Assembly: GCA_016932995.1 (NCBI GenBank)
Contig: JAFGBU010000032.1
Location: forward strand, 1 to 58,658
From: Desulfovibrionaceae bacterium
GTDB taxonomy: Bacteria > Desulfobacterota > Desulfovibrionia > Desulfovibrionales > Desulfovibrionaceae
DNA: 58,658 bases
Direction of reading: 5' to 3'
The notes below the pieces were generated by a model that saw nothing but the letters and a program-made list of their open reading frames with translations, was not told the origin of the DNA and did no database searches. A program made the translations under genes and the position numbers. Every line of letters begins with the position of its first letter. Position 1 is the stretch's first letter. Shown here piece by piece: positions 42,971 through 47,895 of this stretch.

Positions 42971-44317
<1,347 letters not shown>

Positions 44318-44596: not shown

Positions 44597-44612
44597 TGGC
44601 CCGCGATTTGCT
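44597..44612 (+). promoter_or_regulatory. Sigma-54 (-24/-12) promoter of the cytochrome operon
   Basis: TGGCCCGCGATTTGCT matches the RpoN consensus TGGCACG-N4-TTGCW with one mismatch; the invariant GG and GC are at the correct spacing. Initiation is expected near 44623, about 80 nt before the ATG at 44704. The divergent sigma-54 activator gene and the palindrome at 44505 support it. Confidence 0.85.
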
Positions 44613-44703: not shown

Positions 44704-46047
44704 ATGAAACAACCAGGGCTAACAGGGGTCTTTGTTCTGGCGGCGCTCGGCTGTGTGCTCGTGTTCGGCCGGATCGAGCCGGCCCGGGCCGCGGGCCCGG
44801 AGACCAGCGAGTGCTTCAAGTGCCACACCAGCGCCCGCAAGCTGATAGACATCTGCCGGGACGTGGCCAGGCAAGACAAGGGCACGCCGGGCAAGTCGGC
44901 TGAAACCGAGGGCGAGGGCTGAGGCGGAGAGGTGGAGCAGTTGGCTCCGCACGAAAAGATATTTGTGGACAGCGCCCTGGCCGAGGACGAGAACCACGGC
45001 CCCATCGGCTGCCATGAATGCCACGGCGGCAATCCCGCGGACCCGGACTGGAAGACCGCGCACAAGGGCGTGGTCAAGGACCCGACCTATCCGGACCCGA
45101 CAAAGGCCTGCGGGGACTGCCATCCGGAGATCTGCGCCGCGTCCGGGACCAGCCTGCACGTCGGCCTGGCCCCGTTCAAGACGGTCATCGACAGGCGCGC
45201 CGGTCCGGACGAGCCCGGCCGGACCAAGGTGGACAAGGCCAGGCAGGCCCATTGCCAATCCTGCCACAGCAGCTGCGGCCAATGCCACGTCAGCCGGCCC
45301 GAGGCCGTGGAGGGCGGCCTGCTGGAGGGCCACCTGTTCCTCAAGCGGGCGCCCGAGGCCCTGACCTGCACCGCCTGCCACGGCAGCCGGATGCAAAAGG
45401 AGTATTACGGCAAGAACCCGGGCCTGCCCCCGGACGTGCACAAGACAAAGTACTTCAAGTGCACCAAGTGCCACCAGGCGGCCGAGATGCACGGCGACGG
45501 GAAAAAGTACGCCGACCGCTTCAGTGTGGCCAACAGGCCCAGGTGCCTCGACTGCCACCAGGAGATACTCAAGGATCAGGCGCCCAACGCCGAGCAGCAC
45601 CAGACCCACAAGGACCTGGTCAGCTGCCAGGTCTGCCACTCCGTGGCCTACAAGAACTGCTACAACTGCCACTTCGGCAAGGACAAGCAGGGCTACAAGT
45701 ACTTCAAGTGCGAGAAATCCGACCTGGACTTCAAGATCGGGTTCAATCCCCTGCCCAGCGAGGACAGGCCCCAGAAGTACGTCACCCTGAGGCACATCCC
45801 CATAGACCAGCAGTCCTTCAAGTTCTACGTGGACTCCGGCCTGCCCGGCTTCGACTCCGTGCCGACCTGGAAGCTGGCCGCGCCGCACAACATCCAGCGC
45901 AAGACCCCGCAGAACAAGACCTGCAACGCGTGCCACGGCAACAAGGCGCTGTTTTTGCGCCAGGAGGACGTCTGGCCCAGGTATGTCCAGGCCAACAAGG
46001 AGGTGATCGTTCCGGCCAAGGCCATACCCGAGCCGGTCAAGCCCTAG
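44704..46047 (+). CDS. Exported 11-haem c-type cytochrome with in-frame TGA (probable selenocysteine, residue 73)
   Basis: One continuous frame of 447 residues plus stop, interrupted only by TGA at 44920-44922. Residues 1-30 are a signal peptide (VFVLAALGCVLVFGRIEPARA) and the first CxxCH is CFKCH (37-41). After the TGA, in the same frame, come ten more CxxCH motifs (CHECH, CGDCH, CQSCH, CGQCH, CTACH, CTKCH, CLDCH, CQVCH, CYNCH, CNACH). Alone, the downstream part has no signal peptide and could not receive haem. A hairpin at 44932-44950 fits bacterial SECIS rules. Alternatives are a recent nonsense mutation, a sequencing error, or separate translation from GTG 44932. A GGAGGGGGAG box precedes the ATG. 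It is predicted periplasmic or outer-surface, with electron-transfer or reductase function. Confidence 0.82.
44932..44950 (+). promoter_or_regulatory. Candidate SECIS hairpin after the in-frame TGA
   Basis: Arms GTGGAGC (44932-44938) and GCTCCGC (44944-44950) form seven pairs, one of them G-U, around the loop AGTTG. The loop starts 16 nt after the TGA and has G at its second position. Both meet the bacterial SECIS pattern, and the geometry is close to that of E. coli fdhF (17 nt, loop beginning AGG). Pairing was judged by eye, not by energy calculation. Confidence 0.7.
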
Positions 46048-46125: not shown

Positions 46126-46554
46126 ATGAGACGCATTCCATTGGTGTCGGCCCTTGTTTTAGGGCTCGTTCTCGGCCTCGGCCTAGCGGTCCAGGCCAAG
46201 GACATGACCGCGGACGACCTGGTCAAGGAGGCCAAGTCCCAGATAACGGAGATCAGCCCTGAGCAGGCCAAGAAATGCCTGGACCAGGGCGGCTACCTCT
46301 GCCTGGACTGCCGGGAGGACAAGGAGTACAAGATGGGCCACGTGCCCGGGGCCATCAACCTGCCCCGCGGCCTGGTCGAGTTCAAGATCGACAAGAAGAT
46401 TCCGAACAAGGAAGCCAACATCCTGGTCATGTGCAAGACCGGGGGCCGGGCCTGCCTGACCTGCCGGGCCCTGAACCGCATGGGCTACAAAAAGGCGGTC
46501 AACATCGCCGGGGGCTGGCAGGCCTGGGAAAAGGCCGGCTACCCGATCGAATAG
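46126..46554 (+). CDS. Exported rhodanese-like protein
   Basis: A 142-residue single-domain rhodanese with an N-terminal signal peptide (LVSALVLGLVLGLGLAVQA), so it acts outside the cytoplasm. The active-site loop is VMCKTGGRACL, with the persulfide-forming Cys first; CLDCRED, MGHVPGAINLP and NIAGGWQAWEKAGYPIE are typical. A second Cys pair (CLTC) follows directly. It lies 78 nt after the cytochrome with a GAGGGGGG box and before a strong terminator, so it closes the sigma-54 operon. It may handle sulfane sulfur or selenium for the cytochrome. Geobacter ext gene clusters also pair a rhodanese with multihaem cytochromes. Confidence 0.9.
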   Translation: MRRIPLVSALVLGLVLGLGLAVQAKDMTADDLVKEAKSQITEISPEQAKKCLDQGGYLCLDCREDKEYKMGHVPGAINLPRGLVEFKIDKKIPNKEANILVMCKTGGRACLTCRALNRMGYKKAVNIAGGWQAWEKAGYPIE

Positions 46555-46800: not shown

Positions 46801-47895
46801 ATGCGCGCATGGCTGCTTGTTCTCGGGCTGGCGTTTTTGGCCGGGGCCTGCGCCCCGCGCACGCTGAGGCCGAGCATAGACCCCGCCCTGACGGCCAAGG
46901 AGGCCGCCCGGCAGCGCGTGCTCGCCGTTCAGGACGAAGACGAGAAGCTGGACCGCATTGAAGAGGTCTTTGGCCGGATCATCGTCTGCAACGCAGGGCT
47001 GTGCGAAAAGAAAAAGGGCTACCTCGGCCTGACCCTGTTCCACCCTCGGTTCGTGGACGACAAGGCCTGGGTCCAGGCCTACCGGGAGGTGTACGGCCTG
47101 AACGACGACTATCTGACCGTGGTCCGGATAGCCCCAAAAAGCCCCGCGGACCTGGCCGGACTGCAGGAAGGCGATCTGGTGCTCTCGATCAACGGCCAGC
47201 GGCCGGACACGTCCTCCAAGCAGGGCCTGGCCGAGTTCCTGGAGTCCTATAGGGCCTGGACCGGGCAGGGCCCGTTGAGCTTCCGGGTCCTGCGCGGGAT
47301 CGAGGTGGCCTATGCGACCGAGGAGCCCAGGCCGGCCTGCGACTGCGTGGCCCTGCTGGTCAGCTCAAGCCAGGTCAACGCCTTGGCCGACGGCCAAAAC
47401 ATCTACGTGTTCCAGGGCCTGCTCAGGTTCTGCGCCAAGGACGAGGAGTTGGCCCTGGTCCTGTGCCACGAGCTGGCCCACAACGGCATGGGACACATCA
47501 AGGCCCAGCAGGGCAACCGGCTGATAGGGGCGATATTCGACGGTCTCGTGGCCGGGCTGCTCGGGGTGAACACGGGCGGGGCCTTTGCCCGGGCCGGGGG
47601 GCAGATGTTCTCCCAAGAGTTCGAGGAGGAAGCCGACTATGTGGGCCTGTACTACATGGCCCGGGCCGGCTACGACATCCAGAACGCGCCCGATCTCTGG
47701 CGGCGCATGGCTTCGGAGAACCCTGAGTCCATCGGCCGCAGCACAACGCACCCGTCCACCAGCCGGCGCTTCGTGGCCCTGGAGGCGACCCGGGAGGAGA
47801 TATTCGCCAAGCAGGGGCAGGGCCTGGCCCTGGAGCCGGAGACAAAGCCGGACAGGGACCGGAGCGGGGCCCCGCGGCCCGGCGGAGCGGAGTAA
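46801..47895 (+). CDS. M48-family metallopeptidase with PDZ domain (lipoprotein)
   Basis: A 364-residue envelope protease. The signal peptide ends in LAGAC, a lipobox-like site, predicting lipidation at Cys17. A PDZ-like region (about 75-170) has VVRIAPKSPADLAGLQEGDLVLSING. The gluzincin core is LCHELAHNGMGHI with the third zinc ligand in EFEEEADYVGLYYMARAGY, and the usual HPSTSRRFVAL. It resembles BepA/LoiP-type peptidases that control outer-membrane protein quality. It follows the terminator at 46612; an AAGGAG box lies 6 nt before the ATG. Confidence 0.88.
   Translation: MRAWLLVLGLAFLAGACAPRTLRPSIDPALTAKEAARQRVLAVQDEDEKLDRIEEVFGRIIVCNAGLCEKKKGYLGLTLFHPRFVDDKAWVQAYREVYGLNDDYLTVVRIAPKSPADLAGLQEGDLVLSINGQRPDTSSKQGLAEFLESYRAWTGQGPLSFRVLRGIEVAYATEEPRPACDCVALLVSSSQVNALADGQNIYVFQGLLRFCAKDEELALVLCHELAHNGMGHIKAQQGNRLIGAIFDGLVAGLLGVNTGGAFARAGGQMFSQEFEEEADYVGLYYMARAGYDIQNAPDLWRRMASENPESIGRSTTHPSTSRRFVALEATREEIFAKQGQGLALEPETKPDRDRSGAPRPGGAE

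Follow-up and report, generated by a model that had tools for sequence, protein, structure and literature searches.

Among the described multihaem cytochromes, OTR (TIGR04315, structure 1sp3) and ExtKL (NF040886) come closest to the locus studied here. OTR reduces nitrite, hydroxylamine and tetrathionate, and haem II is its catalytic haem, according to the accessible part of the study that describes it (PMC4484225). For the Geobacter ext system, the accessible part of the published work reports that selenite and tellurite are reduced less when extI is lost (PMC5877670). A 2026 review of prokaryotic selenoproteins, available to us in part, tabulates 119 families, of which ExtKL, GSU2204 and OTR are the ones whose names indicate haem motifs; the selenocysteine (Sec) member of OTR is listed as GenBank-annotated (PMC13188914). 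None of the families that the available part of this table credits to Haft and Tolstoy (2025) is a multihaem cytochrome, and a search of the main text of the deep-Sep paper (PMC5029168) for the words cytochrome and heme found neither.

A family of 11-haem Sec cytochromes is absent from Pfam, from NCBIfam (June 2026, no specific model) and, as far as the accessible part of the review goes, from its 119-family table. The genome paper of Desulfobacterium autotrophicum, likewise accessible in part, puts the number of Sec proteins at 31 or more, part of them in its Table S3, and the cytochrome may already be listed there. The selenoprotein family described below is not listed in the sources searched and has its own architecture; it adds a widespread family whose gene would be split at the TGA codon by standard gene calling.

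The cytochrome frame, its TGA codon and the hairpin

The window, by which we mean the whole stretch of DNA analysed, comprises 58,658 nt of contig JAFGBU010000032.1 from a Desulfovibrionaceae bacterium (assembly GCA_016932995.1, genome G000 below). On its forward strand, positions 44704-46047 form a frame for an 11-haem c-type cytochrome of 447 residues, whose single internal stop is the TGA at codon 73 (44920-44922, forward strand), between haem 1 and haem 2. A preliminary description, made from the sequence alone, had reported such an interrupted multihaem frame, and its layout is as described: of the 11 CxxCH motifs, motif 1 (44812-44826, forward strand) lies before the TGA and motifs 2-11 (45010-45936, forward strand; residues 103-411), which are invariant in alignment A1, lie after it. 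The frame opens with a probable signal peptide of about 30 residues (44704-44793, forward strand), recognized by a hydrophobic N-terminus with a modelled helix at residues 6-22; its cleavage site is inferred. The product is most likely an exported 11-haem cytochrome, export being inferred from this peptide. The piece after the TGA, already thought to lack an export signal, would on its own start at GTG 44932 and exclude the signal peptide. The peptide context of Sec73 is GEG-U-GGE without a nearby Cys, as had also been noted; none lies within 20 residues.

In bacterial SECIS elements, a hairpin stands 3' of the UGA and carries a G in the first two loop positions. A SECIS-like hairpin of seven pairs is predicted at 44932-44950 (forward strand), with the loop AGTTG at 44939-44943. 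In the fold predicted for the 42 nt that begin at the TGA (-12.2 kcal/mol), offsets 12-18 pair with 24-30 and offsets 19-23 form the loop; the hairpin begins 9 nt past the TGA, and the spacing from TGA to loop is 16 nt. This reproduces, as a predicted fold, the hairpin of the preliminary description. The folding-energy check proposed with it gave no support: 64% of 200 synonymous recodings are equally stable (z +0.36), and among the remaining 42-nt segments of this gene, 34% fold equally well. Per clade, the mean z was about -0.9 to -1.1, and 22 of 87 sequences were at or below the 5% level. Because these z values are weak, folding energy was rejected as proof of a SECIS, and we therefore compared pairing with that expected under synonymous recoding.

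For this comparison, each codon was redrawn from the gene's own synonymous codons (1000 draws); the null assumes that the sequences are independent, and seven of the 87 TGA-carrying relatives were omitted for their different spacing. The 48 distinct sequences of clade A have 288 stem cells, of which 272 are paired (169.2 +/- 6.1 expected); the stem is complete in 36 of the 48, where 0.9 would be expected. Clade B (23 sequences) has 127 of 138 cells paired, with 69.4 +/- 4.2 expected, and clade C (five sequences) shows a weak excess (27 of 35 against 21.9 +/- 2.3). The loop carries G at position 1 or 2 in all three clades. Moreover, three stem pairs of clade A each occur in two complementary states (33 G-C and 11 C-G; 20 A-T and 25 C-G; 23 G-C and 23 T-A), and the peptide alters along with them, EPLAP being exchanged for APLEP. 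The codon in the 5' stem arm changes at least seven times on a rough tree from which the Sec region was left out, where the stem-codon label took in three clade-C rows as well as synonymous and unpaired variants. Judged from these alignments, the putative RNA stem is conserved in clade A while the protein swaps residues, and the predicted hairpin is more than chance, with support that is comparative and does not come from the window sequence's own energy. A search of Rfam yielded only one sub-threshold chance match.

Relatives and Sec machinery

Duplicates were merged before TGA codons, stems and neighbours were counted, which left 90 distinct relatives. TGA stands at the equivalent column in 87 of them (85 found through the spacing filter, plus L022 and L130), and the remaining three are L027, which ends at a contig edge, L026, which has Tyr, and a small five-haem frame without TGA beside the Sec gene of L064. 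Alignment A1 holds 63 of the 69 loci L010-L078 (L022, L027, L046, L051, L053 and L063 were excluded as truncated, partly masked or near-duplicate), A2 contains all but one of the 12 fetched OTR loci, and A3 holds 27 sequences picked from A1.

In 395 sampled genomes of the phylum, the protein with exactly one TGA occurs, among the matches listed, at 51 sites in 46 genomes; the listing is incomplete only for weak matches. A search of 251 genomes from the phylum to which G396 (titled Anaerolineae) belongs gave matches in 11, and ten of these have TGA between haems 1 and 2; one of these ten, G502, has an extra TAA in its second piece, and the match in G425 begins too late to show the TGA column. 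A scan of GTDB genomes gave 40 named loci, Desulfonema magnum included, and the MAG titles include Chloroflexi, Calditrichaeota, Gemmatimonadetes and Eisenbacteria, the last three as single records. No Cys homologue at the Sec column occurs among the 90 relatives, no relative with TGG at this column was seen, and 72,556 plasmid records contained no relative.

The preliminary description had looked to homologues either for a TGA that alternates with Cys or for one that stays TGA with a conserved hairpin. The second pattern was found, with a hairpin that covaries; alternation with Cys was not, the only full-length relative without Sec having Tyr. Scattered stops and frameshifts, which would have spoken for a pseudogene, were seen only in a decayed copy in G324 and in the TAA of G502.

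Some further copies were observed alongside these. G000 has a second Sec cytochrome of the same family (L080, G000:C3:64098-65357), 48% identical. In the window's own family (f1), the 16 other genomes sampled have no match among those listed, so that the cytochrome gene appears patchy there, by loss or horizontal transfer. The extra copy in G324 (L091, G324:C28:17421-18439) is frameshifted and decayed, and the same genome also has a Sec copy. In L064, a five-haem paralogue without Sec, the frame from 4332, lies upstream of the Sec gene. L026 / L090 (G339:C82) has Tyr at the Sec column; Arg229 and Glu233 are changed as well, H364 is replaced by Glu, and a rhodanese part forms the C-terminal end.

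The search for Sec machinery that had been called for found selA, selB, selD and tRNA-Sec, all in G000. The tRNA-Sec match scores 85.7 bits (gathering score 47); a second, weaker match (51.6 bits), a score that five of 14 control genomes also pass, is probably another tRNA. The selA and selB genes lie 1.5 kb apart on contig 32. The selD gene (G000:C44:48036-48968) carries one in-frame TGA, and the selenophosphate synthetase of G000 is probably also a selenoprotein. Among the matches listed, selB is present in 43 of the 46 carriers of the phylum (not found in G033, G266 and G286), which hardly discriminates, since 353 of the 395 phylum genomes have selB. All 13 genomes that were checked singly also have selB: 12 are carriers from outside the sample, and the other is G339, in which the cytochrome copy is without Sec.

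The TGA kept in relatives, the covarying hairpin and the complete set of Sec genes bear out the initial proposal of a probable selenoprotein. On this comparative evidence, we are almost certain that the frame 44704-46047 encodes a selenoprotein with Sec inserted at codon 73; selenium in the protein has not been shown. UGA codon 73 would be decoded as Sec by SelB and tRNA-Sec via the hairpin 9 nt downstream.

Predicted fold and the possible site of Sec action

The AF2 model of the window protein (pLDDT 89.6, pTM 0.83) has OTR 1sp3 as its nearest solved structure, with Z 9.2 over 269 residues (model residues 95-447); the next row is HAO with Z 3.5. When a clear match is lacking, the best Z is usually 7 to 8, only a little below the 9.2 obtained here. 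Foldseek compares the model with 1sp3 at E 1.2e-3. The weaker model of a clade-B protein (pLDDT 74.3) is again nearest to 1sp3, with a Z of 8.1 that is little above the typical best value, and Foldseek gave no significant match for it. In the profile comparison, residues 131-318 align with OTR 26-274 at E 3.2e-14, a value inflated because CxxCH motifs are shared. Following this alignment, OTR haem I corresponds to haem 3 here and the catalytic haem II of OTR to haem 4, and Sec73 with haems 1 and 2 sits N-terminal of the OTR-aligned stretch. The larger C-terminal part of the cytochrome is probably related to OTR.

The one full-length relative without Sec bears on where Sec73 may act. We call a column near-invariant if it is kept in at least 61 of the 62 Sec proteins of the alignment, and there are 59 such columns. 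L026, which is 34% identical to the window protein, retains 56 of them and differs solely at Sec73, Arg229 and Glu233, and it keeps all 33 C/H columns of the CxxCH motifs together with eight invariant His. The codons for Arg229 to Glu233 occupy 45388-45402 (forward strand), and the loop is aligned with the loop of OTR K153, the Lys ligand of haem II. An Arg-x3-Glu/Asp motif occurs in the 87 relatives with Sec and in L027, 88 of the 90 in all; the two that lack Sec do not have it. Nine of ten further loci from the phylum of G396 fit this pattern; L151 has the Arg and the Glu, with a changed neighbour. These data favour a tie between Sec73 and a substrate pocket at the OTR-like haem, an inference that depends on a single long-branch sequence without Sec and in which the Sec-haem distance is unmeasured.

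Alternatively, Sec could be inserted and serve only as a structural axial haem ligand in a pure electron-transfer cytochrome, without Sec catalysis. The protein is predicted to bind 11 haems, and outside the CxxCH motifs alignment A1 has eight invariant His columns and two frequent ones (H299 in 59 of 63, H364 in 52 of 63). H364 is absent from all eight clade-B rows of A1; therefore, at least one haem has no family-wide His ligand. Because at most ten frequent His serve eleven haems, and nine in clade B, Sec as a haem ligand stays possible, and the Tyr of L026 is itself a possible ligand. Sec as exactly the eleventh, missing ligand can be rejected, because clade B lacks H364 and so does not reach ten His. 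What speaks against a merely structural role is that Arg229 and Glu233 differ along with Sec in L026 while the CxxCH columns and the eight His are unchanged; for this reason we favour the pocket role over the ligand role, the two possibilities for Sec that the preliminary description had named without choosing between them. Moreover, the nearest solved structure, OTR, is that of an enzyme. We therefore consider the purely structural role unlikely, at roughly one chance in five, and the best surviving alternative to catalysis by Sec73.

Neighbouring genes, proposed function and known systems

A conserved partner gene follows the cytochrome gene after a gap of 78 nt. It encodes a single-domain rhodanese with a signal-like N-terminus (46126-46554, forward strand; PF00581, E 8.9e-21). 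Of 82 loci, 65 have a rhodanese gene downstream on their own strand, no more than 1 kb away, 13 have none there and four offer no room for one; in nine loci a rhodanese gene is found upstream or on the opposite strand (flanks up to 8 kb). The rhodanese profiles were built from these same neighbours, and four of the 65 hits are under 50 bits. None of the six Chloroflexota-titled loci L066-L071 has a rhodanese downstream, though one of them has no room for it; in three of the six it lies upstream. The single-domain rhodaneses have an invariant Cys (33 of 33), and in the double-domain rhodaneses no one Cys column is kept at 90%. A crude score finds hydrophobic N-termini in 32 of 33 single-domain and 28 of 31 double-domain proteins. 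L026 runs on into a rhodanese part, and one member of A1 matches PF00581 at 1.8e-32. In the clade-B loci L116, L121, L123 and L133, the operon continues with a cytochrome of seven to eight haems, another rhodanese-like gene and a nine-haem cytochrome; in L116 the C-terminal part of this nine-haem protein is hydrophobic. This neighbourhood fits a periplasmic or membrane-linked sulfane-sulfur module, although no substrate has been shown.

On the other side, a divergent gene for a PAS/sigma-54 activator, identified with Pfam, occupies 42971-44317 on the reverse strand; its reading frame is open to 44692, and the start at ATG 44317 is inferred from the PAS position. A match to a sigma-54 type -24/-12 promoter lies at 44597-44612 (forward strand), 91 nt before the ATG of the cytochrome gene, and is the only one in the window (0.04 expected). 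Downstream of the rhodanese gene, a gene for an M48 metallopeptidase with a PDZ domain was also observed (46801-47895).

In the mechanism we propose, Sec73 would act in a substrate pocket with Arg229 and Glu233, beside the haem that matches the catalytic haem II of OTR, and would attack or bind a sulfane-sulfur compound (thiosulfate, polythionate, polysulfide or persulfide). The product of the adjacent rhodanese gene would donate or accept sulfane sulfur, and the haems would carry electrons, with reduction as the likelier direction. By inference, the sigma-54 activator with its PAS sensor probably switches the cytochrome gene on. We give an even chance to the inference that the protein is a periplasmic Sec/haem oxidoreductase for sulfane sulfur with a rhodanese partner, an activity that is untested. 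More tentatively, and with the odds somewhat against it, we hypothesize that Sec73, Arg229 and Glu233 form a new type of catalytic site, in which Sec beside or bound to a c-type haem makes or breaks S-S bonds within a multi-phylum respiratory module of Sec cytochrome and rhodanese. The rhodanese linkage points to a concrete substrate class; if Sec does sit at a haem, this would be an unusual Sec/haem active site, and the Sec trait would support sulfur redox chemistry in uncultured lineages.

Two other substrate classes compete with sulfane sulfur. The cytochrome might be a selenium or tellurium oxyanion reductase akin to the Geobacter ext system, whose gene cluster, in the accessible part of its description, includes the rhodanese-like ExtH and the predicted Sec cytochrome ExtKL (PMC5877670). 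Weak matches to the ExtM profile occur in 51 of the 63 members of A1, but that of the window protein is short and far under the cut-off (23.6 of 800 bits), and neither the five haems of ExtKL nor the position of its Sec nor the lack of an NF040886 match in G000 agrees with this reading, which we regard as improbable. An enzyme for nitrite, hydroxylamine or another nitrogen compound, as relatives of OTR and HAO can be, seems less probable still: OTR reduces the first two besides tetrathionate (in the accessible part of PMC4484225), and HAO and NrfA appear in the structure comparison at Z 2.5-3.5, but the rhodanese neighbour in 65 of 82 loci points to sulfur. So do the many record titles that name families known for sulfate reduction. 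Finally, a pseudogene, a sequencing error or a TGA reassigned or read as another residue can be dismissed almost entirely, for although the TGA breaks the frame and G324 has a decayed extra copy, 87 of 90 relatives in several phyla share the TGA with conserved flanks, the hairpin covaries, the Sec machinery is complete and no TGG relative was seen.

The proposed Sec/haem oxidoreductase can be set against the known families in turn. Pfam and NCBIfam gave the window protein only generic haem-repeat matches or matches under curated cut-offs; Cytochrome_C7 matches all 63 members of A1 and Cytochrom_c3_2 matches 60, and these repeats cover 68 and 79 of the 447 residues, respectively. The resemblance in fold to HAO and NrfA is weak, below the Z treated as meaningful, and both differ in haem number from the 11-haem cytochrome.

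ExtKL resembles the cytochrome in being a multihaem protein with one predicted Sec and a rhodanese-like protein in its cluster. It has five haems, however, and its Sec sits in the C-terminal third, in the motif GHx(I/L)PDGU (open-frame position 296-342 in six Sec examples). NF040886 matches one of 63 A1 members (E 0.0045) and nothing in G000 at E 0.001; the missing match, the haem count and the position and motif of Sec exclude membership in ExtKL. Among ExtKL relatives without Sec, we observed Cys in L083, L085, L086 and the second L084 copy; the first L084 copy has a different residue, and L085 additionally contains an in-frame TAA.

The likeness to OTR is closer, OTR being the nearest solved fold for both models and matched by profile. 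TIGR04315 recognizes five of 63 A1 members (best E 1.1e-9) and had no match in G000 at E 0.001. This absence, the 11 haems here against eight in OTR, and the lack of a fixed residue at the K153 column (column 231), where Q, E, G, Y, A, K and others occur, exclude membership in OTR proper. OTR itself has Sec or Cys at the Cys64 column of 1sp3; in the 12 fetched loci we observed Sec in L140, L144 and L145 and Cys in L138, L139, L141-L143 and L146-L149. Sec73 is not at this column, and its equivalence to Cys64 is rejected, since in the profile alignment OTR haem I falls on haem 3. Compared with both systems, the locus therefore encodes a predicted Sec multihaem cytochrome in which Sec is placed unlike that of ExtKL or OTR.
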